IMG/VR virus record: IMGVR_UViG_3300030012_001963
Span: 1 to 21,560 of that record
Strand: one strand, 5' to 3'
Source of the DNA: a virus
DNA length: 21,560 nt
Shown here: positions 2,177 through 21,560 of the stretch, one piece after another
Layout: every line of letters begins with the position of its first letter
Numbering within the stretch: position 1 is the stretch's first letter
Notes under the pieces: generated by a model
Databases searched by the model: none
What the model was told of the DNA's origin: nothing
Seen by the model: only the letters and a program-made list of their open reading frames with translations
Translations under genes and position numbers: made by a program

Positions 2177-2203
2177 GAGAGAAGGTTTTTTTAACCTTCT
2201 CTC
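2177..2203. repeat. Hairpin: 11-bp inverted repeat in the leader of the winged-helix gene
   Basis: GAGAGAAGGTT (2177-2187) and AACCTTCTCTC (2193-2203) are perfect inverted arms around a 5-T loop. The stem ends 11 bases before the ATG of the leftward winged-helix gene. No T-run follows on either strand, so a terminator is unlikely. Each arm contains the heptamer AACCTTC or its complement, which is also the core of the repeats at 2255-2313. It could be a protein-binding site or an RNA structure that limits access to the start codon. Confidence 0.65.
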
Positions 2204-2225
2204 TATACGTATAAGTATACGTATA
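2204..2225. repeat. Twin 10-bp palindromes TATACGTATA
   Basis: TATACGTATA occurs at 2204-2213 and again at 2216-2225, separated by AG. Each copy is its own reverse complement. They sit between the hairpin and the 22-bp repeats. Two adjacent palindromes 12 bp apart look like a dimer-binding operator, or an easily melted AT-rich element beside an origin. On the minus strand, TATACT within this stretch could serve as a -10 box for the winged-helix gene, without a convincing -35. Confidence 0.6.
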
Positions 2226-2233
2226 CGGATATA

Positions 2234-2313
2234 GTGGAAGGTTTTACTACTCTATATGGAAGAACCTTCTACTTAGTATGGAAGAACCTTCCACACTATA
2301 TGGAAGAACCTTC
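2234..2313. repeat. Iteron-like array: three 22-bp direct repeats plus one inverted half-site
   Basis: The 15-mer TATGGAAGAACCTTC occurs exactly at 2255-2269, 2277-2291 and 2299-2313, a period of exactly 22 bp or about two helical turns. Each copy contains the small inverted repeat GGAAG-AAC-CTTC(C). An inverted half-site, GTGGAAGGTT, lies at 2234-2243. The heptamer AACCTTC occurs six times in 2181-2313: four in the plus orientation and two inverted. Period and regular phasing match plasmid and phage iterons or operator arrays. The proximal copy abuts and overlaps the end of the 43-residue gene. The likely binder is the adjacent winged-helix protein (inference). Confidence 0.75.
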
Positions 2314-2427
2314 CATATCCTTCGGCTTTTTTTCCTCCTGTTTTGCCTTCTTTTTTCCGAAAATCTTGTCAAAGTTTTCGTTAAATTTATCTCTATCATA
2401 CGGTCTTGGTTTATCGCCTTTGCCCAC
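2296..2427 (-). CDS. Short conserved phage protein starting MGKGDKPRP (GTG start)
   Basis: A GTG at 2427-2425 opens a 43-residue frame beginning (V/M)GKGDKPRPYDRDKFNENF, followed by a KIFGKKK stretch and a basic/acidic tail ending MEGSSI. I recognise the pattern 'GKGDxPRPxDxxKFxxNFDxIFGK' as a short conserved phage protein of unknown function. The start is secured by a perfect AAGGAGG at 2434-2440, six bases upstream. It overlaps the end of the DUF3310 gene by 17 bases. Its last codons and TAG are embedded in the iteron-like array. A longer 73-residue frame on the same strand (2247-2468) lacks both the ribosome-binding site and the conserved sequence. Confidence 0.8.
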   Translation of the reverse strand: MGKGDKPRPYDRDKFNENFDKIFGKKKAKQEEKKPKDMEGSSI

Positions 2428-2653
2428 GTGTTACCTCCTTCAATAATATCAATCTGGTTAAATACCAATTTGCCTTTTTTAAATCGTCATTTGGTTTGCC
2501 TTTGTTTTTAAATTTATATCTATGCAAATATTTCAAGACATTCCCCTCTAAATACGCATCAAACTTATCGCCTAATTGTTGCTCTATGTAATCAATGGAT
2601 TCAATCTCGCCTTGGTTATAGTGTGGCGGTTTATTTATCTTATCTATTCCCAT
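2411..2653 (-). CDS. DUF3310 family phage protein
   Basis: This gene encodes 80 residues. The sequence PPHYNQGEIESIDYIEQQLG, followed by YLEGNVLKYLHRYKFKNK and a DDLKKANWYLTRLI helix, matches DUF3310. That is a small family common in T4-, T7- and siphovirus-type phages, usually within nucleotide-metabolism or replication regions; sometimes it is fused to such enzymes. Its biochemical role is not established. The start has AAGGAGGT at 2661-2668, about seven bases upstream, and overlaps the primase-helicase stop by 10 bases. The full length of the family domain is present. Confidence 0.9.
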   Translation of the reverse strand: MGIDKINKPPHYNQGEIESIDYIEQQLGDKFDAYLEGNVLKYLHRYKFKNKGKPNDDLKKANWYLTRLILLKEVTRGQRR

Positions 2654-4494
2654 GTAAACGACCTCCTTTCGTATAATTCTAAAAATGCTTTGCGTCTGAT
2701 TAAAGTTTTCATGTTGGTATCTACTTCGCTACTGTTAGCTTTAACTACTTGCGACCTAACCACACGGAAGCGATCATAGTCTAACCCTTCTTCCGCACAA
2801 ATAGATTTAACTCGCTCTTCTTTCTCCGGTGCTAAAATCCACGCTAGCCTGTGCCCATCGACAAGGGCTGAACTTCCTCTGATTGCCGATCTTAAATCTA
2901 AATCTGATAAATCCGCCCCTTGTAGACCGAGCTTAGACATATGATGCACACTTAAACAAACTACGTTTAACTTACTAGCAATCGAAGCTACGAACTGAGT
3001 ATACAACTGAGCTGCTTCCTGACTCGTGGTAATCGGTGCTTGTACCAACGATTGAATCGGGTCTAACACCACCATACGTAAGTTATCAAAGCTGTTAAGT
3101 TCATCTAAGAACTCGTATGCCTGATCGCTCAAACGTAGACCTTGACTATCATCTTGTAAAAAGATCAATGGCTTGGGTTTATCTGGCACGGTATACACAA
3201 ATACGTCATGGTCTGACTTAAATCTTTTACCTTCTGGGTCGATACTTGCTATTCTTCGCCAAATTTCCTGAGAATCATCTTCACAACTAACGATCAAGCA
3301 ATCGCCATGTGAGTTAATTTTTTTACCTAAAAACTCCCCAGAACCACAACCGGCTATCTCTAAGGCACTTGAGATAACTGTTCCTGACTTACCAATACCA
3401 CCGATACTAGCTAAGACTGCCGGCTTACCTAATTCTAGTAACCCTTCTATCAACCATTCTCTTGGTGGCGGGTCTTCGGTAAAAGTTTTAATACTTAGAT
3501 TGCGTAAACCTAAACCTTTGTTGAGTATGTCTAACCTAACTTGATCTAAACCTTTAGCTAGGTGTAAGTCGTTGTAGTCGCCAACTTCTGAAGGCAACCT
3601 TACTTTGATGTTAAAAAAATCGTTTTGTATGTGTTGAGCTTTCTTTGCTCCTAGTCCTGATTCGTCATTGTCTAAAGCTAGTACGATTTCGCAATCGGTT
3701 TTCTTACGTAAGTTTTTAACTACATCATAAGCAAAGTTAGCAGAAAAGCAGATGGCTACTGGAGAGTTAGTAGCCATCCTAACGGAAGCTGACGTTGCGT
3801 ATCCTTCGCAGATAACGATTTGGCTGAGTTGCTTAAGAGACGCAAAGTCAGTTCCGATTAAATGTAAATTACCTTTTATTTCGCCACCAGACACGAATCT
3901 TTTTTCGCCTTTCTTACCACGAATGTACTGCAGAGAACGAAGCTCTCCTTCTATGTTGTAAATTGGTACGATTAAAGCCCCAGAAAGCTCACGTAAGCCA
4001 TAATTTTTAATACCTTTATGGTCTAGGTATGGATGGTCAAAAATCTCCTCAGAACGCTCGTATCTAGATTGCACATCTTTGGCAACTTCGTTCTGTTTTA
4101 TACGTTTATTTTCTTCTTGTTCTAGTCTGTTCTTATCTAACAGATCACGTAACTCTTGTTGTTGTGTTACCGACAAACTTTCTGAATTGTATGAAGTCCA
4201 TTTATGTTCTTCACCTGTCCGCCAGTTACCATACAAAGCAACGTATTGTCCGTTGGCTAATTGATTACAACAATACCAACCGCTACGTTCTTGTGATCTA
4301 TCTCCTCTTGCTTGCCCGCTTGACAACACCGGCACACGAACTAAAGAACCAGTCGTGTCTAAGTAATTGACACGCAGTCCCGCTTCGTTCATTTCTTTTA
4401 TTAAATCATCAGTAGACCTTTGCTCATTGGCATGAACAAAAGATGAGATTGATTTCTTGTCAAAGTTTCTAAAAAACTCAGTCAGATCGCTCAT
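2644..4494 (-). CDS. TOPRIM primase-helicase fusion (RepA/AAA_25-type helicase)
   Basis: This 616-residue protein has two halves. The N-terminal part (about 1-330) includes WYCCNQLANGQYVALYGNW at 73-91 and a TOPRIM domain at about 174-300, with the conserved Glu at VICEGYATS (E230) and the DxD pair in ALDNDESG (D275, D277) that bind metal for primer synthesis. The C-terminal part (about 345-616) is a RecA-fold helicase of the RepA/AAA_25 kind. It has Walker A GGIGKSG at 365-371, Walker B MVVLDP ending at 479, the SVHHMSK motif near 515 and IRGSSALVDGHR near 538, suitable for the sensor and arginine finger. It should prime and unwind DNA at the phage fork. It overlaps both neighbours by 10-17 bases. 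No separate DnaB or DnaG is present. Confidence 0.9.
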   Translation of the reverse strand: MSDLTEFFRNFDKKSISSFVHANEQRSTDDLIKEMNEAGLRVNYLDTTGSLVRVPVLSSGQARGDRSQERSGWYCCNQLANGQYVALYGNWRTGEEHKWTSYNSESLSVTQQQELRDLLDKNRLEQEENKRIKQNEVAKDVQSRYERSEEIFDHPYLDHKGIKNYGLRELSGALIVPIYNIEGELRSLQYIRGKKGEKRFVSGGEIKGNLHLIGTDFASLKQLSQIVICEGYATSASVRMATNSPVAICFSANFAYDVVKNLRKKTDCEIVLALDNDESGLGAKKAQHIQNDFFNIKVRLPSEVGDYNDLHLAKGLDQVRLDILNKGLGLRNLSIKTFTEDPPPREWLIEGLLELGKPAVLASIGGIGKSGTVISSALEIAGCGSGEFLGKKINSHGDCLIVSCEDDSQEIWRRIASIDPEGKRFKSDHDVFVYTVPDKPKPLIFLQDDSQGLRLSDQAYEFLDELNSFDNLRMVVLDPIQSLVQAPITTSQEAAQLYTQFVASIASKLNVVCLSVHHMSKLGLQGADLSDLDLRSAIRGSSALVDGHRLAWILAPEKEERVKSICAEEGLDYDRFRVVRSQVVKANSSEVDTNMKTLIRRKAFLELYERRSFTWE

Positions 4495-4882
4495 TAATTA
4501 TCTTCGTTATCTTATCTAAATTACCAGTTTTAGCCTGCTCGTTAGCATAATCTAAAAAATTTAAAATTACCTCAGCAAATAATTTTTCCCTATCTTTTTG
4601 TGTCCATTCATGCAACACAAAAGAATCGTTATCTTTACTCAGAGTGACGTAAGTATCCTTTGATTGTTTGACAGCATACTTAACGCCCTCTTCGTTTGCA
4701 TAAGCTACTCTTGGTAGCCTTTCTCCTTTCAAAATTTTATCACTATGTTCCATAGAACAAGCCCCGTATACACTTCCTCCGACAGCAACAAACAAACCCT
4801 GTATTGGTGCTCTACAGTAAGCACATAAAGATTGTCTGTTGTGTCTTAAAAAATAATCTAGCCTAAAAAGGGATTTCGTCAT
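4478..4882 (-). CDS. Zinc-finger-containing phage protein, unknown function
   Basis: This gene encodes 134 residues from ATG 4882 (MTKSLFRLDYFLRHN...). An upstream TTG at 4888 is an alternative, but the ATG has GGA at a fitting distance and is the simpler choice. The N-terminal third has a likely zinc site: C20-x2-C23, then C42-x3-H46 (SLCAYCRAP ... YGACSMEH). The C-terminal half is helical and charged. It overlaps the SSB gene by 20 bases and the primase-helicase start by 17 bases, so it is translationally coupled between two replication proteins. A DNA-binding or replication-accessory role is inferred from position and the zinc site only. Confidence 0.75.
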   Translation of the reverse strand: MTKSLFRLDYFLRHNRQSLCAYCRAPIQGLFVAVGGSVYGACSMEHSDKILKGERLPRVAYANEEGVKYAVKQSKDTYVTLSKDNDSFVLHEWTQKDREKLFAEVILNFLDYANEQAKTGNLDKITKIINERSD

Positions 4883-5405
4883 CAACAATTCCAGTTGACT
4901 CTTCCTTTACAGGAGTTGACTCTTCCTTTTCTACGACCGCTTGTTTTACTTCACCTGTACCGTTGGTTGCTTTTTCAAAAGTTTTAAAATCTTTATCAAC
5001 AATATTAAAGTAAGAACCATCGTGTTCTATCTCAGCACTTACTTGTTTACCAACTAGATAATCAGTTTGCATAGAATCAAAAAAACTTTTTCTATCTAAA
5101 CCCGCAGCTTCAAATAGCGTACTCATCTTTTTGATGTTGACCGAAGCCCAAGCTTGTGAACCTGCTTGATTCTCAGAACCAATCACGTATTCAAACTTAG
5201 TCTTCATATTGGTGTCACCAATCTTGAACTTAAATACTTGTTTAGTTAGATAGCTTCCATACTTTTCTTGATTATTATTTATTGATTGCTCAACTATACT
5301 TTCTTCAACGCACGTAAGATTGTGCATCCCCTCTTCGATATTTTCATTAGCCGGCATGTTGTCGGTTAAATCTAAATCGCCTGTAAATTGTTTTAAGTCG
5401 CTCAT
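4863..5405 (-). CDS. ssb: DUF669-type single-stranded DNA-binding protein
   Basis: This gene encodes 180 residues. The central region (about 25-150) has the beta-rich pattern of DUF669 proteins, which act as phage single-strand DNA-binding proteins and are often encoded beside Sak4-type ATPases. After a disordered Glu/Lys/Thr linker (about 150-172) the protein ends in DDEIPF, the acidic-Pro-Phe tip that bacterial SSBs use to recruit partner enzymes. The ATG at 5405 has AGGAAA about seven bases upstream. It would coat ssDNA for the primase-helicase and for recombination. The family assignment is from pattern recognition; the C-terminal tip is directly visible. Confidence 0.85.
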   Translation of the reverse strand: MSDLKQFTGDLDLTDNMPANENIEEGMHNLTCVEESIVEQSINNNQEKYGSYLTKQVFKFKIGDTNMKTKFEYVIGSENQAGSQAWASVNIKKMSTLFEAAGLDRKSFFDSMQTDYLVGKQVSAEIEHDGSYFNIVDKDFKTFEKATNGTGEVKQAVVEKEESTPVKEESTGIVDDEIPF

Positions 5406-5616: not shown

Positions 5617-6354
5617 CTACTTTTTAACAATGCCTTCACGGACGGTATCCCAAGAATCAAATTTAAGTTCTGCTTCCAGACCGTATCTATTCTTTGCTAA
5701 GAACGCAGGTCTTTCAATGGTATACAGAACTCGCTCACCTTGAACAGCTTTAGTTGTCATCTTGCCACCTTTACCCTGTACTTGTGCAGTACCAAGTTTA
5801 AAGTTAGCAAAGAAACAACAATCACTATGCTCAAGAATTAAATCAGAAGCTTTGCGATGAAGCTTGAGAGTAAATCTATCAAAGGCTTCTATCTCTGGGC
5901 TTTCAAATTTAATAATGTGTGAGTGTGCTATTTGTAAGACCATCATATTCTTTTTATCTCTAAGCTGATTAAGAATGTCTATGTATTCTCTGAAGTATCT
6001 AAGAACTTCTACATAGCCTTTACCATAACCGGGCTGTTCAATAGAACGCCAGTTATTATCTTCACAAGCTTTGTTCCAGATCAATGGCTCTAACCAGTCA
6101 ATAGAATCAATGACTACGGTAGAATAATTGTGGTCTTCATTGAGTAATGTTTTTAAGTTCTCAATAACTTTGTCAAACGATGTAGCTAATGGAAAGTGAG
6201 GTGCTTCAACCTTACCCATACCATCTTCTGTAAGGATGAAGATAGGGTTCTTTGTTGTTGCAGCCCACGTAGTTTTTCCTACGCCCGCACCTCCGTACAA
6301 CACTATACGAGGACTCTTTAACTTACTCTTTTCTCTAATGTCAGCTAGACTCAT
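5617..6354 (-). CDS. Sak4-like RecA-fold ATPase (AAA_24 type), recombination
   Basis: This gene encodes 245 residues. It has Walker A GGAGVGKTT at 21-29 directly after the first beta strand (RIVLY) and Walker B TVVID at 79-83, within the short single-domain RecA layout of AAA_24 proteins. Phage members such as Sak4 are single-strand annealing or recombination ATPases. The neighbourhood supports this: a Cas4-like nuclease two genes upstream and a DUF669 SSB two genes downstream. A GAGGT ribosome-binding site lies five bases before the ATG and the gene overlaps the upstream one by 14 bases. It probably loads on ssDNA exposed by the nuclease and helps repair or circularise phage DNA; that role is known for relatives and inferred here. 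Confidence 0.85.
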   Translation of the reverse strand: MSLADIREKSKLKSPRIVLYGGAGVGKTTWAATTKNPIFILTEDGMGKVEAPHFPLATSFDKVIENLKTLLNEDHNYSTVVIDSIDWLEPLIWNKACEDNNWRSIEQPGYGKGYVEVLRYFREYIDILNQLRDKKNMMVLQIAHSHIIKFESPEIEAFDRFTLKLHRKASDLILEHSDCCFFANFKLGTAQVQGKGGKMTTKAVQGERVLYTIERPAFLAKNRYGLEAELKFDSWDTVREGIVKK

Positions 6355-8229: not shown

Positions 8230-11200
8230 TTAGTAGATTAATTTTTCTTGAATTGCTTCAATATCTATAAGTTTTCTTTGTGCTTTAGGTAATCTATTTA
8301 AATAAATTCCTATAAATCTTGCTGGATTTTCAAGCACGGAATATTCTTTTGCTGTCTTTCTTAACTCTGTAAGTACCTTTCTCATAAGAATTTCTTTTTC
8401 AGGATTTCTTAACTTTTTGTATTTTTCTGTTTCTACTATTGAAGAAACAACTGTTTCTACTAAAGGTCCTAAATATCTTGCATTAGATTGATCTACTATT
8501 GGATCACCTGTGTATGGAAGTATTTCTCTTCTTTTGAAACCAAGCCTATCTAATTCTTTTTCCGCAGGATTTTTAGCTTCTCTAACAGTAATACCTGTAA
8601 GTTGTCTTGCTAAAGGTCCGGGAACTTCTATGTCAGTAAAAGGTATTTTTACTGTTTCTGGTCTTCCCGGAGCTGCAGCTCTCGTTGGTGATTCTACTTC
8701 TGGTAAAGTTTCCCTAAGTCCCGGTATGCTAGTTTTAAATTGTTCTAAAACATTTTGAGGAATATCTTCATATGAAAATCTTTCTGGTAAAGCAGTTCTA
8801 AAAGTTTGTTCTTGATTAAAAAAATCACCCAACATCCTGAAAGGTGTTAAATAACCACCTAAAACATCTGATACAAACCTTGACACTTTTCTTGATATTT
8901 TTTGTTCACTATCAACACCAGCTAAATCATTAACAAAATCATCTACCAAAGCTAATCCTGCCCCTGCTCTAAATTGTGCACCTGTTAATCCTTGTAAAAT
9001 ATCTTTTGAGTCAAGAGGTATTCTTCCTTCTTCTGCTCTAACAATAATATCTGCAACTAAAAGATACGGTGTCATTGGAAAATAAGGTCTAGCATCTATA
9101 GTTGTCCCATCTTCTCCTTTTAATTCATACCATTTTTCACCACCAAACCCTCTTCTTTTAGCTTCTACTGCAGACATTAACAAGGCACTACCAATCATAG
9201 ATTTACTAAATACGCTCATATCTCCTTTAGCAACTTTAGCTCTTTCTGCTTTAGTTAATAAAGAAAGCGGTCCTAAAGGACTGTGCTCAAATTGAAACTT
9301 CATAGCATTTGCCATAAATCTAGCAAATGGAACAACACCAGTTGTTATAAAAGGTATTGAATTAGATAAATCTACAAAAGCTTTACCTAATTTATTGTCA
9401 GGTGTTTTTGCATAAGTAAACTCAAGAGCATCATCAACAGCTTTTTCAACGTCTGCTTTTGTAATTTTTGAAATATCATTATTTTCTACAGCTTCTTTTA
9501 AAGATACACCTTTTTTTCTAAGAGTTTCTTCTAAGGAAGAAGCAAACATACCTCTTCTATAATAAAATTCTTGCATACGGTTTACTATATTTAAACCATC
9601 AACTACTTTTTGTGCACCTTTCATAACTCCTTTATCAGAAGCTACTGCTACATCTGATGCGTAACGGTTAAAGAGCCTATCTTTTTCATTTACAAAATAT
9701 TTTGTTGTAAACTCTGTTGCATCTTTAGCAAATTTTGTATTTTTGGTTAAATTTAATAACAACCCAAAAGTGTTTGTATGGTCTACCGGAGCTGCTTCTG
9801 CTCCAAAAAGTTTTCTTAATGGGTTGAAAGTTGCATTTAAAGCATTGTCCATACCTTTAACTAAAGTATGCACACCAACTCTACCTATTTGTGCGGTAAA
9901 GTTACGCATTGAAGTTGCAATTTGACTTACTAATAAACCCCTTCTTACATTATCTAAAGCATAAGCAGAATCACCAAACTTTCTTAATAAACCATCTGCC
10001 ATTCCTTCTTTTGGTGCTAATCCAGATAATTCATCGCCAATATCTTTCATAGACTTTCTTGCAACACTTAATTGAGCTAATTTTTTAGCAGCATCAGAAG
10101 CGCCTAATTTAAATAACTGTGCAAACTCAACCAGATCAATTTTATTTTTTTGTAAAATATTTAAAAATGCTTCTTTATACCCTGAATCTCTATTTACTAA
10201 CTGTAAAGCTTGGAAAATTTGATCTGATACTTGTATGGATGGGTCTCTTGGAATGTTTAGCTCATCTAAAATTTGTATTCCTACATCTATACCTTTTTGA
10301 CTTAACTCTAAATCAATATCTGCTTGTAAACCTTCACCCAAAGTTGCTTTTTCTTCTCTAATTTCTTCAGCCGTTTCTCTATTAAATTTTTCAACATCTT
10401 GTTCAACTTCTTGACTAACTTCTTCTACAGTTTGTTTTTGATCTGCTTTTTGTAAAGACTCTTCTTCAATATTAGTTATCTTTTCTTGAGCTTTTCTTGC
10501 AGAAACCCTTCCTCCTATTGCTCCAAGTGTACCACCAAGAACTGAACCTGCTGCTGCACCTATACCAGCAGTTTTAGCTGTTTGTCCAAAATCAAAATTA
10601 TCTTGCTGACCTGCTGTTATTCTTGTGGATTGTCTTAAAGCATTGTCAGCAGCAGTATAAGCAGCACCCTCTAAAGCACCTACTTTTGCACCTCTTGATA
10701 ACCCTGCTTTTGTAGCTTGTTTTACACCCTCTTTAATTCCTACTTTTAATGCTTGAGACCCCGCAGTAGCAGCACCAAAAGTAGCTGCTCCCACATATGT
10801 TGATGGATCAAATAGAATACCTTTAACTGCTCTTCCAAAACCTGCAACGCTTGGAGCTTTTTCATCATACATATCCATTAAAGTAACAAAATCTTTTTTT
10901 TGTTCGTCTGTTGCAGAAGTAAGTTGAGTTGCTTCAAGACCCATCTTAGGAAGGTTATAGTTAAACCAGCCCATATACCTTAGACCATATTTTGCATATT
11001 GGTCATCTGAATCTAACTCAGGAGCATCTTGCCCTTCATTCATTTTGTAAACAGATTTTGATGCAGATATCCAGTTAGGGTCTTGAATAATAGTTGCTTC
11101 AGTAAGTTTTTCAGGTTCTTCTTGCTCAATTACAGGTTTTTGTTTTTTATTGTATTCTGAAAAAATTTGATTTAATTCTTCTTCAGTAGGTGGTTTTTCA

Positions 11201-15517: not shown

Positions 15518-16255
15518 TTAAGCATTTTCTAAAGTTTTAACTTTTTCTTCTAATTCTTTTACTGCACCTATTAATAAAGCAACTAAACTGTTGTAATCAA
15601 TTTTTTTGACGTTCTCTCCCCCTAAAGATTCTGCTCCATCAAAAATAGCTTCTGGTACATAATTTTCTACTTGTTGTGCAATTAAACCTATTTGAGTATC
15701 GGTAGTGTTTCTAACTCCCTCTATTTCATTTTTCCAATTAAAACTAACTGGCTGTAAATTTTTTATTTTATCAAGGCTATTAGATGAGGATATATTGGCA
15801 ATGTTAGTTTTTAAATTTTCATCGGAAGCATCTGTACTAGCCGCAGTTAATCTCCCTTGAGCATCTACAGTAATAGATGCTATACCTCCGCTTAAAGTTG
15901 TAGCAAATGCAACAGTTGGTAGACCTAATGTATGACCTATGCCTTCTCCAGTTGTCGCTCCTGTTGTCGTTAAATGACCAGATGTAACGGCAATAGTGCC
16001 AACGTAATTACCAGTCGTTTTAGTACCTAAAGCAATGCTGTTATCTGGAACAGTTAAAGTTCCTGATATTGTAGCCGTGCCAGCTACAGTTAAGGTTTTG
16101 CCAGAACCAACATTTAAACCAACGGATGTGCCGTTACCTGCTCCTGCAAATATGGCATCAACAGAATCTAAGTTATTGTTTAAAGTTCCACCCCAAGTAT
16201 TATCAGACCCACCTACGGTTGGCTTGGTTAATCCTAAGTTAGTTGTCGTTGTCAT
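15518..16255 (-). CDS. Short tail fibre with S74 intramolecular chaperone
   Basis: This gene encodes 245 residues. The N-terminus LGLTKPTVGGSDNTWGGTLN then NNLDSVDAIF is an attachment-type module shared with the long fibre at the right edge. The middle is Gly/Thr-rich beta sequence (about 45-140). The S74 peptidase/chaperone domain starts at S144-D145 (DASDENLKTN), the self-cleavage position, and contains IGLIAQQVENYVPEAIF and a final coiled coil (ALLIGAVKELEEKVKTLENA). In relatives this domain trimerises the fibre and is then cut off. It lies two bases before the gp10-like gene. The exposed part is very short, so it may be a base or adaptor fibre. Confidence 0.85.
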   Translation of the reverse strand: MTTTTNLGLTKPTVGGSDNTWGGTLNNNLDSVDAIFAGAGNGTSVGLNVGSGKTLTVAGTATISGTLTVPDNSIALGTKTTGNYVGTIAVTSGHLTTTGATTGEGIGHTLGLPTVAFATTLSGGIASITVDAQGRLTAASTDASDENLKTNIANISSSNSLDKIKNLQPVSFNWKNEIEGVRNTTDTQIGLIAQQVENYVPEAIFDGAESLGGENVKKIDYNSLVALLIGAVKELEEKVKTLENA

Positions 16256-16300: not shown

Positions 16301-17233
16301 TTAACCACCCTCTAATGTTTCTATCCTTGCTTTTAAATCGTCTATTATAGTTTGTTGTTCTTGTATTGCTTTGACAAGTATAGGAGTTATATTTCCATAA
16401 TCCATGCCTAAAGTATCGTCACTCTCATCTGTTGGCATAAGTTCTTTTACATACTGACCCAATCCGATATCTTGAAAATTTTGTGCAATAAAACCATACT
16501 CTTTACTAGGTCTTGAGTCGTCTTTTGTATCTCCATTGAGTTCTGTTCGCCAGTCAAAATCTTTAACAGTAATTTGTTTAACTTTGTCTAAAACATCTGC
16601 TGAATCTGTAATGTTCATTTTCATTCTTTCATCAGATAAAAAGTTTAAATCAATAGAATCGCTATCACTTGTCATACTGAATATATTTGTACCGTTTGTC
16701 ATTTTGCCGATATACCAATATCCTGTTGTCGTATTTGTATAATTACGAGCAGATATTCCCCAACCACCTGCCGTAGAGTGAGTTCTCAACTGTAAAATAC
16801 CTGAAGAATCATCTCCAATATATCCTGCATCCGCAGCTAGAGTCAGTTTCCCTGTTGACTCCAATCTCATTTTTTCTGTTAAAGTAAAAGAATTACCATC
16901 AGTTAAACTTGTATTGTTATAAAAAAATGTTGCTCCATTATCAAAAGATACACCTGATGCCGAAGTAGAAGCGGCTATAAAATTGCTTCCGTTATAATAA
17001 AATCCACCAGAAACTATTAATTGATTATTGTCTGTTGATGTTAAAAATCCACCGTCTTGAGACGCAGCACCTACTTTCATTTGGGTATTACTGCCTTCAA
17101 CATCTAAAAGAAAATCAGGACTCGTAGTTCCTATCCCAACTTGTTCTGAACTATTAATAGTTATAGCAGTAGCGTTACTACTATCTGATATTCCGGGAGT
17201 GCTTGATAATTCTGCTGGTATTTTAGTTGTCAT
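16301..17233 (-). CDS. Tail fibre with S74 chaperone (second N-terminal family)
   Basis: This gene encodes 310 residues. The first 45 residues (ISDSSNATAITINSSEQVGI then GTTSPDFLLDV) closely match the start of the fibre at 17569-18561, defining a shared anchoring module. A beta-rich shaft or tip with many Asn, Tyr and Gly follows (about 50-195). The S74 domain begins at S200-D201 (NFLSDERMKMNITD), includes KEYGFIAQNFQDIGLGQYVK, and ends in a coiled coil with IEQ-type heptads (AIQEQQTIIDDLKARIETLE). The matching N-terminus and different middle suggest it recognises another receptor than its paralogue or forms a mixed fibre. Confidence 0.85.
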   Translation of the reverse strand: MTTKIPAELSSTPGISDSSNATAITINSSEQVGIGTTSPDFLLDVEGSNTQMKVGAASQDGGFLTSTDNNQLIVSGGFYYNGSNFIAASTSASGVSFDNGATFFYNNTSLTDGNSFTLTEKMRLESTGKLTLAADAGYIGDDSSGILQLRTHSTAGGWGISARNYTNTTTGYWYIGKMTNGTNIFSMTSDSDSIDLNFLSDERMKMNITDSADVLDKVKQITVKDFDWRTELNGDTKDDSRPSKEYGFIAQNFQDIGLGQYVKELMPTDESDDTLGMDYGNITPILVKAIQEQQTIIDDLKARIETLEGG

Positions 17234-17234
17234 A

Positions 17235-17576
17235 TTAACCTATAGTTTTAGTAACTGATGTTGGTGTAACTTTTTCAGCTATCTGAGCATCCAAATCAGC
17301 TTTGTAATTAGTTACAGCTTCTTCACCCATAGCTGCTTCAACCCAGCCTTGCACATCACTTGCTGTTAAGTCTGCAAAGGCTGTAAAGCTAGATAAATCA
17401 GAAACATCTAAAGGCTGACTGCCATATACACTTGCAGTTTGCGGATTACCGTCTGCATCGTTATTAGCATCGTCGGTTGCTAAGAGTCGCCAATGGACGT
17501 TGTAAACCACATCGTCCTTTTCTTCGTGTGTTGGGTAAGTATCAACTGTACTTACGTTCCATTCATAATTAACCAT
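17235..17576 (-). CDS. DUF7936-like phage protein
   Basis: This gene encodes 113 residues. The pattern MVNYEWNVSTVDTYPTHEEK, then DVVYNVHWRLLATDD, ASVYGSQPLDV and a WVEAAMGEEAVTNYKADLDA helix, is that of a small family I know from cyanophage and other marine phage fibre regions and associate with DUF7936. Its function is not established. It sits between two fibre genes, one base from the next and overlapping the previous by eight bases, so it is made together with them and may be a fibre chaperone or connector. That role is inferred only from position. Confidence 0.75.
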   Translation of the reverse strand: MVNYEWNVSTVDTYPTHEEKDDVVYNVHWRLLATDDANNDADGNPQTASVYGSQPLDVSDLSSFTAFADLTASDVQGWVEAAMGEEAVTNYKADLDAQIAEKVTPTSVTKTIG

Positions 17577-18561
17577 TTTTTAGTGCCTCAATTTCTTGTT
17601 GTAGTGATTCGATTTGTTCTTGTTGTTCTTGCATTGCTTTGGTTAAAACAGAAGTAAAGGCTGCATAATCAATTTTCATATCGCCCTGCCCATCTGTACC
17701 AGATACAATTTCTGGAACTTCTTCAACCATTTCTTGTGCTATAAATCCTATATTGTAATCACCCTCTAAAGTTCTTTTTTCTCCGTCAATTTCAAACATT
17801 TCAACAACATCTTTAAACTTAAACTTCTTAGGTTTTAATTTTTTTACAGTTTCTAAACCGTATGCTATATCAGTAATGTTTTCTTTTTGGTCTTTATCTG
17901 AAATAAATCCAGCAGATGTAAGCGAAACTTCAAATCTTCCTGTACCACTTGCATCATATACAACCAATGTATTACTTGCTGTTGTGCCTAAATACCAACC
18001 GTAATTTGTACCACTTGCTTGGTCTCTATCTATACCTAAAGCATAAGTACCCCCACTTATATAAGCAGCAGTAGAATCATCTGGTGATTTAACATGAAGG
18101 TCTGAATTTGGCGAAGTTGTGCCAATCCCGACATGTCCCGCAGATGTAAAACGCATTACCTCATTTGCGTTTGTATCAAATTTCATAAAATCATTAGCAT
18201 GGTTATAAGAAACAGAACCTCTCCAAGAATCACTAGCTCCCTTACCGTCTGCAAAAGATAATTGACCATTTCCAGAAGTAGAATCTGAAAAAATAATAAG
18301 CCCTGTATAAGTTGAAAGACTTGGACCACCAATAATTACTTGGTGAGCTGAGTTTGCCCAGCCGCCTGAACCACTAGTTCCAAAGCTTGCTATTGAATCA
18401 CCAGTATTAGCTGTTATTGTGTGTGTAACATCTAATTTGCTTACTGGGCTTGTGTTTGCAATCCCAACATTTTCAGAACTATCTATAGTTATAGCAGTAG
18501 CATCAGAGCTATCAGAAACTCCTGTGTCTAATAAGCTTCTTGATATTTTTGTAAGTGCCAT
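17569..18561 (-). CDS. Tail fibre with S74 chaperone (second N-terminal family)
   Basis: This gene encodes 330 residues. The N-terminus (SDSSDATAITIDSSENVGIA) is a close relative of that of the fibre at 16301-17233. The shaft holds another VGIGTTSP motif (about 144-151), and a diverse beta-rich region lies at about 155-215. The S74 domain starts at S221-D222 (GFISDKDQKENITD), has YNIGFIAQEMVEEVPEIVSG, and ends in a Gln/Glu-rich coiled coil (AMQEQQEQIESLQQEIEALK). It begins one base after the stop of the long fibre gene. Self-cleavage at S221 would release the last 110 residues. Receptor unknown. Confidence 0.87.
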   Translation of the reverse strand: MALTKISRSLLDTGVSDSSDATAITIDSSENVGIANTSPVSKLDVTHTITANTGDSIASFGTSGSGGWANSAHQVIIGGPSLSTYTGLIIFSDSTSGNGQLSFADGKGASDSWRGSVSYNHANDFMKFDTNANEVMRFTSAGHVGIGTTSPNSDLHVKSPDDSTAAYISGGTYALGIDRDQASGTNYGWYLGTTASNTLVVYDASGTGRFEVSLTSAGFISDKDQKENITDIAYGLETVKKLKPKKFKFKDVVEMFEIDGEKRTLEGDYNIGFIAQEMVEEVPEIVSGTDGQGDMKIDYAAFTSVLTKAMQEQQEQIESLQQEIEALKNG

Positions 18562-18562
18562 A

Positions 18563-21560
18563 TTATTCTCCTCCCTCTAAAGTTTCTATTCGGGCAGTAA
18601 GAGCTTCTATTTTATCATCTGCCTCTTGTAATGCTTTTATCAATGGTGCAATAAATTCTGTATATCTCAAACCATATCTAGTTTCTGTTACAGGGTTATC
18701 CTTATCATGTTTAGGCGGTTCAGTTGGTTCATCTTTACAAAATCCTGCAAAGTCCTGTCCTGTCTTGCTTATATCAGATAAAACATCTTCTACATCCTGT
18801 GCTATTAACCCATAATGTGTTCTTCCACTTGTACCATCATTAAATTTATAAGATTTTGGTGCTAGTCTTTTTACAAAATCTAAACCTAAATCACTATCAA
18901 CAATAGTATTTTTTTCATTTCTATCAGAACTATAAGTAGTTCCAGAAAGATACATATTTCTCCATCTGTAAGAACTATGACCTAAATCATAAGTAGCATC
19001 TGAAAGTGGCATAGTTGTATGAAAGTAAACTGAACCTCTACCAATCTGTGCACCTTCAACTTCTAAAGCATAGTTTATTGTTGTCGGATTACCAATACCA
19101 ACTCCACCATCAGATTCAATTCTTAAATCATAACTTCCTGAACTTACATGACCTATTGCTCCAAAACCTCCGTCATTACCATAAATTCTTAGTCCATGTG
19201 GACCTGATTCTCCTAAAAATTCTGCTACTGTTCCACTAGCACTTGTTACTGAAAGTGTTTGACCCGGACTACTAGTTCCTATGCCAACATTTCCAGAAGA
19301 ATCAATTCGCATTGCTTCTGTAAAAGAACCTGCTCTTGTTGTACTAAATGTTAAAGTACCATCTTCACTACCATCACTTACATCAGAAGCTAAACATCTT
19401 ATACCACCATAAGTAGTATGATTACCACCATCATCTGTACCTTGAAAAGCTAATGCTCCTACTCTATCTCCATCAGCAGGAGAGCTAGAGTTATGATATA
19501 AAAGTAATTGTGCTCCTGTTGTTCCTGCATCAGTATTTTCAAATGTCACAGTATCTGTAAGTGAACTTGTGACATGAAGTGCTCCTAAAGTTGGAGCTGC
19601 TCCGATTCCTACTTTTAAGTTTTCATCAATAACTACAGCAGGTGTTGTACCTACAGTAGAACCTTTACCAATAATTAAATCGTCAGCAGAATCATCTAGT
19701 CCTACATAAAAGTCTTGGGCATTACCGTCAAAAACAATCTTTGTATCTTCTGCACCTGCGTCACCTATCGTTAGAGTAGGTGTAGTGCCTTTAAGTGTCA
19801 TAGCACTATTAGTTAGAGTTAGTACCTCAGTCCCCGCTACGTCCATTCTAATGGTGTCCTCGTCTGTACTTTCTTCTACTTGTATCTTAGTATCGCCATC
19901 AGCGTCTTCAAAAGTAGTTACAGCTACATTACTAAATGTTACACATTCTACTTTTGTACCTGTAGGAGGAGCAGCACTAAATGTTAGTGTGCTGCCTGAT
20001 ATTGAATAAGTGTCTTTATGTTGAACAACACCATCAATAGTTACGAATGTTTGATTCTCAGATGAAGGAGTTGTGCTTAATGCTAGAGTAGTATCTGAAC
20101 CATCACCAGTCATTGTGTCAATTGAAGGTGCAGTACCTACAATACCGCCCTCTAATTGAAAGACTTCTATAACTCTACCGTTGACAGGTGCAGTTGCAAA
20201 AGTAAGGGTAGTTCCTGAAACTGTATAAACATTATCTGCCTGATAAACACCGTCTATAAATACAATAAGACCATCTTCGTTAGTCATGCTTGTAGATAGC
20301 GTGAAGGCTGTGGTTGAACCATCGCCTGCAAAAGTATTCTTAGCAAAAGAAGAAGAACTGCCGCCAGAACCAGATGCACTAGAAGCTATGGTTATTGAGT
20401 CACTACTAGCATCTGTAGTCAGAGTGATATTGCTACCAGCAACCAAAGTAAGTGTATCTGTGGTTGCATCTGCAACTACGTCAGATTGACCCGATACTGA
20501 AATCGTTGAGAATAAGTTTTGTGAGCCACCACCAGAACTAGCAAATGTAATTTCATCGCCACTAGCATTGGTAGTAATCGTCATGTTTGAGCCAGCTACT
20601 AAAGTAAGTGTGTCTGCTGCTGCATCTGCGACTATATCGCTTTGACCAGATACAGATATTGTTTTAAATGCTTCACTTACTGAACCACCGCCTGTAACAC
20701 TAAAGTCTAATGTACCGTCAGAATCTTCGTAGGTAACAGTTATGTTACTTTCTGTGTTACCAGAAACCATAGCACCTACGGTATCTTGTATAACCTCTGT
20801 TAAGTCTATGTTTGCAGTACCGTCAAAAGATACACCATGAATAGTTCTTGCAGTTGCTAAGGCTGTAGCTGTAGCTGCATTACCTGTAATGTCGCCAGAT
20901 GTTAAAGCAATCGTACCTGCTGATGCAGGTAAAACTACAGTAGGATTACCGCTAAAGCTTGCATGAGCAGGTGCTTGTAATCTTAAATAATGTGCGTTAT
21001 TGCTTTCGCAATAAAAGTCTATATGTGATTGTGTGCCACCGTTTTTAATTTTTATTGCACCTTGTTCTATAACAACACCGTTTGTAGAACCACCGCCAAC
21101 ACCTAAAGAAGTTGTAATCTCTGTAGCTGATGGCAGACCTATCGTTATTGTTCCTGAACTTTCTGCGACTTCTACTTCGTTAGAAGTACCTGCAAAATTA
21201 ATCGTTCCGCCTAAAGATATAGCAGTTGAATTTAAACCAGCACCAACCGTAATAGATGAATTACTTAATTTAGAGTTAGCTATAGAACCAGCTAACATTG
21301 AGTTTTCTACAGATGTGGCTGCTATGGTAGCTGTTAGTGTGCCACTAGCTAAATTAGTAAGTGTGACATTACCTGTAAGATCACCACCTAATGTGATGAC
21401 AGGTGATTTATTAATCGTAACAGCAGATGCAATATCCCCACCATCTATGTTGAGTGAAACACCTGTACCAGTACCACTAAATATTGCATCGATAGCATCT
21501 AAGTTAGCGTTTAACTTTTGTCCCCAGTTGGTAGAAACATCTAGCTCTGGTTTAGTTAAT
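18563..21560 (-). CDS. Long tail fibre with S74 chaperone, N-terminus cut by window edge
   Basis: The frame stays open from the stop at 18563 to the right edge, so the internal ATG at 21298 is not the start. The 87 extra residues begin LTKPELDVSTNWGQKLNANL and match the N-terminal module of the short fibre at 15518-16255; by that alignment only a few residues are missing. The visible protein is 998 residues. It contains tandem repeats of about 52 and 73 residues, several VGIG(T)(S)SP-type motifs, and an S74 domain starting at S878-D879 (TTYSSDRNEKNTI) with HYGLIAQDVEDVL and a coiled-coil end. C-terminal cleavage would release 121 residues. It is the longest receptor-binding candidate here. 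Confidence 0.9.
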   Translation of the reverse strand, partial: LTKPELDVSTNWGQKLNANLDAIDAIFSGTGTGVSLNIDGGDIASAVTINKSPVITLGGDLTGNVTLTNLASGTLTATIAATSVENSMLAGSIANSKLSNSSITVGAGLNSTAISLGGTINFAGTSNEVEVAESSGTITIGLPSATEITTSLGVGGGSTNGVVIEQGAIKIKNGGTQSHIDFYCESNNAHYLRLQAPAHASFSGNPTVVLPASAGTIALTSGDITGNAATATALATARTIHGVSFDGTANIDLTEVIQDTVGAMVSGNTESNITVTYEDSDGTLDFSVTGGGSVSEAFKTISVSGQSDIVADAAADTLTLVAGSNMTITTNASGDEITFASSGGGSQNLFSTISVSGQSDVVADATTDTLTLVAGSNITLTTDASSDSITIASSASGSGGSSSSFAKNTFAGDGSTTAFTLSTSMTNEDGLIVFIDGVYQADNVYTVSGTTLTFATAPVNGRVIEVFQLEGGIVGTAPSIDTMTGDGSDTTLALSTTPSSENQTFVTIDGVVQHKDTYSISGSTLTFSAAPPTGTKVECVTFSNVAVTTFEDADGDTKIQVEESTDEDTIRMDVAGTEVLTLTNSAMTLKGTTPTLTIGDAGAEDTKIVFDGNAQDFYVGLDDSADDLIIGKGSTVGTTPAVVIDENLKVGIGAAPTLGALHVTSSLTDTVTFENTDAGTTGAQLLLYHNSSSPADGDRVGALAFQGTDDGGNHTTYGGIRCLASDVSDGSEDGTLTFSTTRAGSFTEAMRIDSSGNVGIGTSSPGQTLSVTSASGTVAEFLGESGPHGLRIYGNDGGFGAIGHVSSGSYDLRIESDGGVGIGNPTTINYALEVEGAQIGRGSVYFHTTMPLSDATYDLGHSSYRWRNMYLSGTTYSSDRNEKNTIVDSDLGLDFVKRLAPKSYKFNDGTSGRTHYGLIAQDVEDVLSDISKTGQDFAGFCKDEPTEPPKHDKDNPVTETRYGLRYTEFIAPLIKALQEADDKIEALTARIETLEGGE
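19934..20329 (-). repeat. Two ~58-residue imperfect repeats in the long fibre
   Basis: Coding bases 20159-20329 and 19934-20110 encode two related units about 73 residues apart. Shared features are GDGS-T, VFIDGVYQ versus VTIDGVVQ, Y(T/S)(V/I)SG(T/S)TLTF, then AP--G--(I/V)E(V/C). They look like a duplicated beta domain. They are imperfect at DNA level, so the duplication is not recent. Confidence 0.75.
20378..20662 (-). repeat. Two ~43-residue tandem repeats in the long fibre
   Basis: Coding bases 20534-20662 and 20378-20506 encode units with a period of 52 residues (156 bp). Both contain TISVSGQSD(I/V)VADA, then DTLTLVAGSN and an xITxAS ending. Identity is high in the first 28 residues. They probably form repeated shaft segments of the trimeric fibre. 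Confidence 0.8.

Follow-up and report, generated by a model that had tools for sequence, protein, structure and literature searches.

When a viral genome carries evenly spaced short repeats just upstream of a winged-helix (wH) gene, the question is whether the repeats mark the place where replication begins or the place where the gene is regulated. We addressed this question for positions 1 to 21,560 of the IMG/VR record IMGVR_UViG_3300030012_001963, a stretch of 21,560 nucleotides that we refer to as the window. The reading we favor, with a probability of roughly 0.73, is that the region would be an iteron-type replication origin of a phage that has no DNA polymerase of its own and whose near relatives carry P22-type packaging genes. 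A pure operator of the wH gene is the main rival to this reading.

A sequence-only reading of this DNA had reported a 15-mer repeated three times at 22-bp spacing and a core, AACCTTC, present six times in both orientations. Both counts held: TATGGAAGAACCTTC occurs at 2255, 2277 and 2299, at a spacing of exactly 22 bp (its inner 13-mer was confirmed separately), and the AACCTTC/GAAGGTT core has six copies within 2180-2313, four on the plus strand and two on the minus strand. Viewed as binding sites, 2235-2315 contains four sites in one 22-bp register, namely three copies of T[GA]GAAGGTTCTTCCA on the minus strand and one inverted half-site. Reading the minus strand 5' to 3', TGGAAGGTTCTTCCA, TGGAAGGTTCTTCCA, TAGAAGGTTCTTCCA and TAGTAAAACCTTCCA follow each other in 22-bp steps and lead to ATATCCGTA, the AT-rich palindrome, the hairpin and the wH start codon. 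The twin palindromes, hairpin and wH gene described by the sequence-only reading were all found (Table 1); the boundaries it gave, 2181-2313, were slightly too narrow, the full extent being about 2177-2315. Allowing up to three mismatches, no further copy of the 15-mer occurs in the window, and the shuffled window contains none. Tandem self-matching of the sequence ahead of the wH gene peaked at 0.82, at period 22, compared to a median of 0.52 and a 95th percentile of 0.61 in control windows. The 22-bp array in the window is real and not a product of chance. A small ORF (MGKGDKPRPYDRDKFNENFDKIFGKK..., 2296-2427, minus strand) terminates within iteron 1, so that array and coding sequence overlap.

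Table 1. Positions of the array, its flanking elements and the replication genes in the window.
Feature	Position	Strand	Sequence or remark
Winged-helix protein, 139 aa	1746-2165	-	Candidate initiator
Strong hairpin	2177-2203	-	GAGAGAAGGTT-AAAAA-AACCTTCTCTC; no T-run
AT-rich palindrome	2204-2225	.	TATACGTATA-CT-TATACGTATA; candidate unwinding element
Conserved motif	2224-2232	-	ATATCCGTA; between array and palindrome
Iteron 4	2235-2249	+	TGGAAGGTTTTACTA; inverted half-site, shares the 22-bp register
Iteron 3	2257-2271	-	TAGAAGGTTCTTCCA; 1 mismatch
Iteron 2	2279-2293	-	TGGAAGGTTCTTCCA
Iteron 1	2301-2315	-	TGGAAGGTTCTTCCA; semi-palindrome
Toprim primase/RSF1010-RepA-like helicase fusion	2644-4494	-	Helicase half AAA_25
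180-aa protein	4863-5405	-	SSB-like acidic C-tail DDEIPF; candidate SSB (putative role)
Sak4-like ssDNA-annealing ATPase	5617-6354	-	Same replication/recombination module

Is the array a peculiarity of this genome? Scanning viral contigs with the wH protein returned two near-identical loci and two that are 43% identical; in the latter pair the layout is kept and the repeat is unrelated (GATGCATAACGCAACA at 21 bp). With profiles we obtained 73 loci and, in a second scan, 291 matches, of which we retained 80; the family is present in many uncultured phage contigs. Dropping similar upstream regions left 30 dissimilar loci, for which periods of 15-40 were scored. Of these 30 loci, 28 have a 21- or 22-bp array ahead of the gene, with a best period of 22 for 22 of them and 21 for 6; the other two scored 24 and 30. 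Among 660 control windows taken from these genomes, 21 or 22 came out best in 10%. A search of the locus scored at 30 (L095, record G006) with its own core shows sites spaced 22, 21 and 22 bp. With the method now fixed, all 13 further dissimilar loci taken from the second scan gave 21 or 22. The period is therefore kept together with the wH gene in related genomes even where the repeat sequence is unrelated, the opposite of relatives keeping the gene and losing the repeats.

Across lineages, then, the spacing is shared and little of the repeat sequence is: repeats have been replaced between lineages. Elsewhere in the genomes checked, the iteron core occurs at about chance level and the array is its only cluster, which argues against a general regulator. 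All loci examined have the array ahead of the wH gene or of a short operon containing it. Several loci have peculiarities of their own. The outlier L100 has a 21-bp array and no ATATCC motif, and its GC-rich hairpin TTTTTCCAGGCCGCTGGCGCGCCTGGAAAA is still visible. Within L018-L027, an extra short gene (~70 aa, MKIFITEFEWDG...) stands between array/hairpin and wH gene in L018, L020-L023, L025 and L027, which puts the array at the head of an operon of two genes in these loci. Between hairpin and gene, the wH leader of L069 and L071-L074 contains microsatellite-like AAGC/GCGTGCGT repeats, and L006/L007 carry two exact 19-bp direct repeats, TTAAGAAAGAACATTAGAA, at 9889-9926.

If the wH protein reads the iterons, its recognition helix should change with them. 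Iteron similarity between lineages is 8/14, the chance level, when recognition-helix identity is below 55%, and 13/14 when it is at least 85% (rho 0.44 between the two). The partial Mantel correlation was 0.35 (p 0.001) for the recognition helix when the remainder of the domain was controlled for and 0.015 (p 0.38) for that remainder when the helix was controlled for; shared ancestry inflates both values, and the contrast between them is the informative part. This contrast is as expected if the wH recognition helix recognizes the repeat DNA.

What kind of protein is it? AlphaFold predicts a wHTH fold with confidence (pLDDT 90), and the protein is a single wH domain with no evident helicase-loading domain. 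Its PDB matches are generic wHTH structures with Z below 8 and do not discriminate: the RepA_N N-terminal domains of a plasmid initiator (4pt7/4pql) score Z 6.3-6.5, not above other wHTH proteins. Viral fold matches include the N-terminal part of lambda gpO and Min27 O proteins. At the family level, PHROG 'replication initiation protein' families were matched by 20, 18, 11 and 10 of 36 wH members, weakly (best E 7.6e-5) and consistently. Pfam HTH_36 was found in 28 of the 36 at E<=1; Phage_rep_O (PF04492) is absent among the Pfam matches at this threshold, yet 5 of the 36 match the PHROG 'replication initiation O-like'. Neither RepA_N (PF06970) nor RepC families are among the Pfam matches at E<=1. 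We found no relatives in cultured phages, plasmids or GTDB species genomes, using narrow patterns for GTDB and with one plasmid match at E 0.8. At the convergent junction beyond the gene, a perfect 13-bp inverted repeat, GAGTACGCTTCTT/AAGAAGCGTACTC, with a 24-nt spacer (1718-1767) spans the wH stop codon; it could be a bidirectional transcription end, though it has no T-run.

The array also keeps company with replication genes. The sequence-only reading had placed it at the end of a primase-helicase operon with no visible polymerase, and we agree: the fusion gene is in place, and neither the window proteins that we scanned nor 14 related records of 26-37 kb gave a DNA polymerase of family A, B or C. 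Most of these records may be fragments, so that the absence of a polymerase is not proven. The helicase half has a single PDB sequence match, RSF1010 RepA (1g8y, E 1.3e-4, residues 335-587). Family scans gave no significant match for the 180-aa protein, whose acidic tail resembles that with which SSB contacts proteins of the host replisome and makes it a candidate link to this replisome; its homologue in L006 ends in GDKIPF. The neighboring operon also encodes a DUF2800/PD-(D/E)XK nuclease. A P22-like podovirus is suggested by the terminase and portal of a close relative and by the two phages nearest in terminase, which are annotated as P22-type. Both of these phages encode a DNA polymerase and have no array above threshold. 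The scanned stretches of Idiomarinaceae phage 1N2-2, Alteromonas phage XX1924 and Roseobacter phage CRP-406, which have distantly related primase-helicases, were likewise without an array above threshold. At the other end of the window, four genes with matches to tail-fibre C-terminal families lie in a row on the minus strand (15518-16255, 16301-17233, 17569-18561 and 18563-21298); they appear to be several side-by-side receptor-binding paralogues.

The strongest alternative casts the wH protein as a transcription factor that occupies the phased sites ahead of the promoter of its gene, with replication starting elsewhere. The array invariably precedes the gene or its short operon, which suits an operator as well as an origin, but three to five sites in a fixed 21-22-bp phase in nearly every lineage are more than a simple operator needs. 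The wHTH fold resembles MarR, CRP and Fur regulators in structure matches too; the best family matches of the protein, weak as the PHROG hits are, are replication initiators, and the array co-occurs with the polymerase-less replication module. While the AT-rich block could be a -10 region and the hairpin a stabilizer of the 5' leader, a sigma-70 scan found no promoter at the array on the wH strand (host promoters may differ). We regard a purely regulatory role as unlikely, without being far-fetched. Regulation may well accompany replication: given that the array, AT-rich block and hairpin sit directly upstream of the initiator gene, the same sites probably autoregulate it.

The elements between array and gene are conserved in a different manner. 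Of 71 distinct upstream regions, 62 contain ATATCCNTA, where shuffling predicts 0.6, and ATATCC[AG]TA is near-invariant family-wide, whereas the adjacent iterons vary. Compared to the DnaA-box consensus TTATCCACA, to which the resemblance is distant, ATATCCGTA agrees at 6/9 positions and the commoner variant ATATCCATA at 7/9. The motif may be a site for a host protein, weakly DnaA-box-like, or part of a promoter. In stability the AT-rich block ranks below 91-99.9% of each genome, within the lowest 0.1-9% of its 30-bp windows. In most of 36 distinct regions the palindrome forms a perfect inverted repeat; its arms come in 26 sequences, without a single G-T pair. A few clades lack it, among them the ones closest to the window (L011, L014, L015).

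Among relatives the hairpin preserves its position and shape as its sequence changes, and its 3' arm often has one unpaired base. In all but one of 30 loci it is far more stable than shuffled sequences, with a median z of -5; related sequences have 12 G-U pairs in the sense direction versus 4 in the antisense, and energies are equal for both strands. In the window, the hairpin arms contain AAGGTT. We considered whether a hairpin carrying the repeat core, as in plasmid Rep operators, is a general trait; it is seen in the window and perhaps L006, not in most relatives. The hairpin may be a start site for primase, an entry signal for the helicase or a 5'-leader structure. Its stability and the excess of sense G-U pairs would also suit a structured RNA formed by palindrome and hairpin, with the array incidental. 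We consider this very improbable, given that the palindrome lacks G-T pairs in all 36 regions, that Rfam gives only a sub-threshold PyrR match and that the 22-bp array and the helix-iteron covariation are left unexplained. Still less probable is a centromere-like partition site of the TubR/tubC or ParR/parC type bound by the wH protein as adaptor. TubR structures are among the weak fold matches (6tey, E 0.15; 3m8e, E 0.20), but a ParA-type ATPase is found in 0 of 14 records, no NTPase gene adjoins the wH gene, and an integrase match in only 2 of 14 gives little sign of a plasmid-like state.

We return to the iteron origin. In its favor are the phased direct repeats, kept at 21 or 22 bp in relatives, the adjacent AT-rich, easily melted block, the adjacent wH gene with its weak initiator matches, the helix-iteron covariation and the lack of a detected polymerase, so the proposal of the sequence-only reading gains support. 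GC skew, tried as an origin marker, tracks gene strand and carries no origin signal. Some features tell against an origin: the lone wH domain has no evident part for helicase loading, the PHROG matches are weak and the fold matches generic, and the clades closest to the window lack the AT-rich palindrome. From the anatomy, the conservation, the covariation, the helicase homology and the weak initiator homology, all of them read from DNA and protein sequences, we infer how such an origin would act. Spaced by two helical turns, the iterons share one face of the DNA, and the wH protein would bind and wrap them. Strain from wrapping would open the adjacent AT-rich palindrome block, and the phage Toprim-primase/RepA-type helicase would be loaded onto the opened strands, possibly with the hairpin as a signal. 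Host Pol III would then extend the primers, perhaps recruited through the SSB-like acidic tail.

An iteron origin with its initiator is a known kind of replicon, and phased iterons with an AT-rich region are a plan common to lambda and iteron plasmids (PMC5043065). The lambda ori consists of four iterons and an AT-rich tract (PMC7466680); similarly, about four semi-palindromic iterons lie here beside an AT-rich tract with a phage-encoded initiator. However, the lambda ori is inside the O gene and not upstream of it, and O acts via P and host DnaB, in contrast to a single-domain wH protein with a phage-encoded primase-helicase. In R6K and pPS10 the iterons are 22 bp, and plasmid initiators use a wH DNA-binding domain (PMC4980987). 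With R6K, pPS10, F and P1 the region shares an iteron length and spacing of ~22 bp, helical phasing, an AT-rich neighbor, an adjacent wH initiator gene and probable autoregulation; unlike here, a plasmid Rep such as RepE has two wH domains and uses host DnaA/DnaB, and sequence comparison gives no plasmid relative for the phage wH protein.

RSF1010 encodes the helicase, primase and initiator that it needs and relies on host Pol III (PMC4538821). This IncQ plasmid resembles our region in its self-supplied RepA-type helicase, its own primase activity, a separate initiator, iterons and presumed use of host Pol III, and the hairpin near the origin is reminiscent of ssi primase sites. However, the primase half here is Toprim and fused to the helicase, whereas RSF1010 RepB' is an AEP primase; there is one hairpin versus two ssi sites, and RepC is not among the Pfam matches of the wH protein. 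RSF1010 iterons are 20 bp, compared to 21-22 bp here. PLE RepA and RepA_N initiators offer a further likeness, combining a wH initiator (4pql/4pt7 are among the structural matches), semi-palindromic iterons and a polymerase taken from elsewhere, but Pfam lists no RepA_N match here and PLE replication relies on a helper phage. On our best reading, the region works like the lambda ori, iteron plasmids or RSF1010 while being a proven member of none.

In the open-licence literature searched we found no description of the wH/array family, with its combination of a single-domain wH initiator, a Toprim-RepA-type primase-helicase, a conserved hairpin and exchangeable iterons in uncultured P22-type phages. 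It is tempting to go further and propose an undescribed replicon family of polymerase-less tailed phages, in which a single-domain wH initiator reads fast-diverging 22-bp iterons and loads a primase-RSF1010-type helicase fusion, the hairpin is the priming or loading signal, host Pol III carries out synthesis, and coupled change of helix and iteron switches origin specificity. We hold this fuller proposal tentatively, at slightly less than even odds; if it is true, coupled switching would create replication 'incompatibility groups' among phages. The natural pairings of recognition helix and iteron make initiator-origin specificity directly testable, and the module links phage replication to the RSF1010-type strategy of providing helicase and primase and borrowing the host polymerase. 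Origins of uncultured phages are seldom located, and the signature of a wH gene, a 21-22 bp array, ATATCC and a hairpin marks a candidate origin in dozens of genomes.
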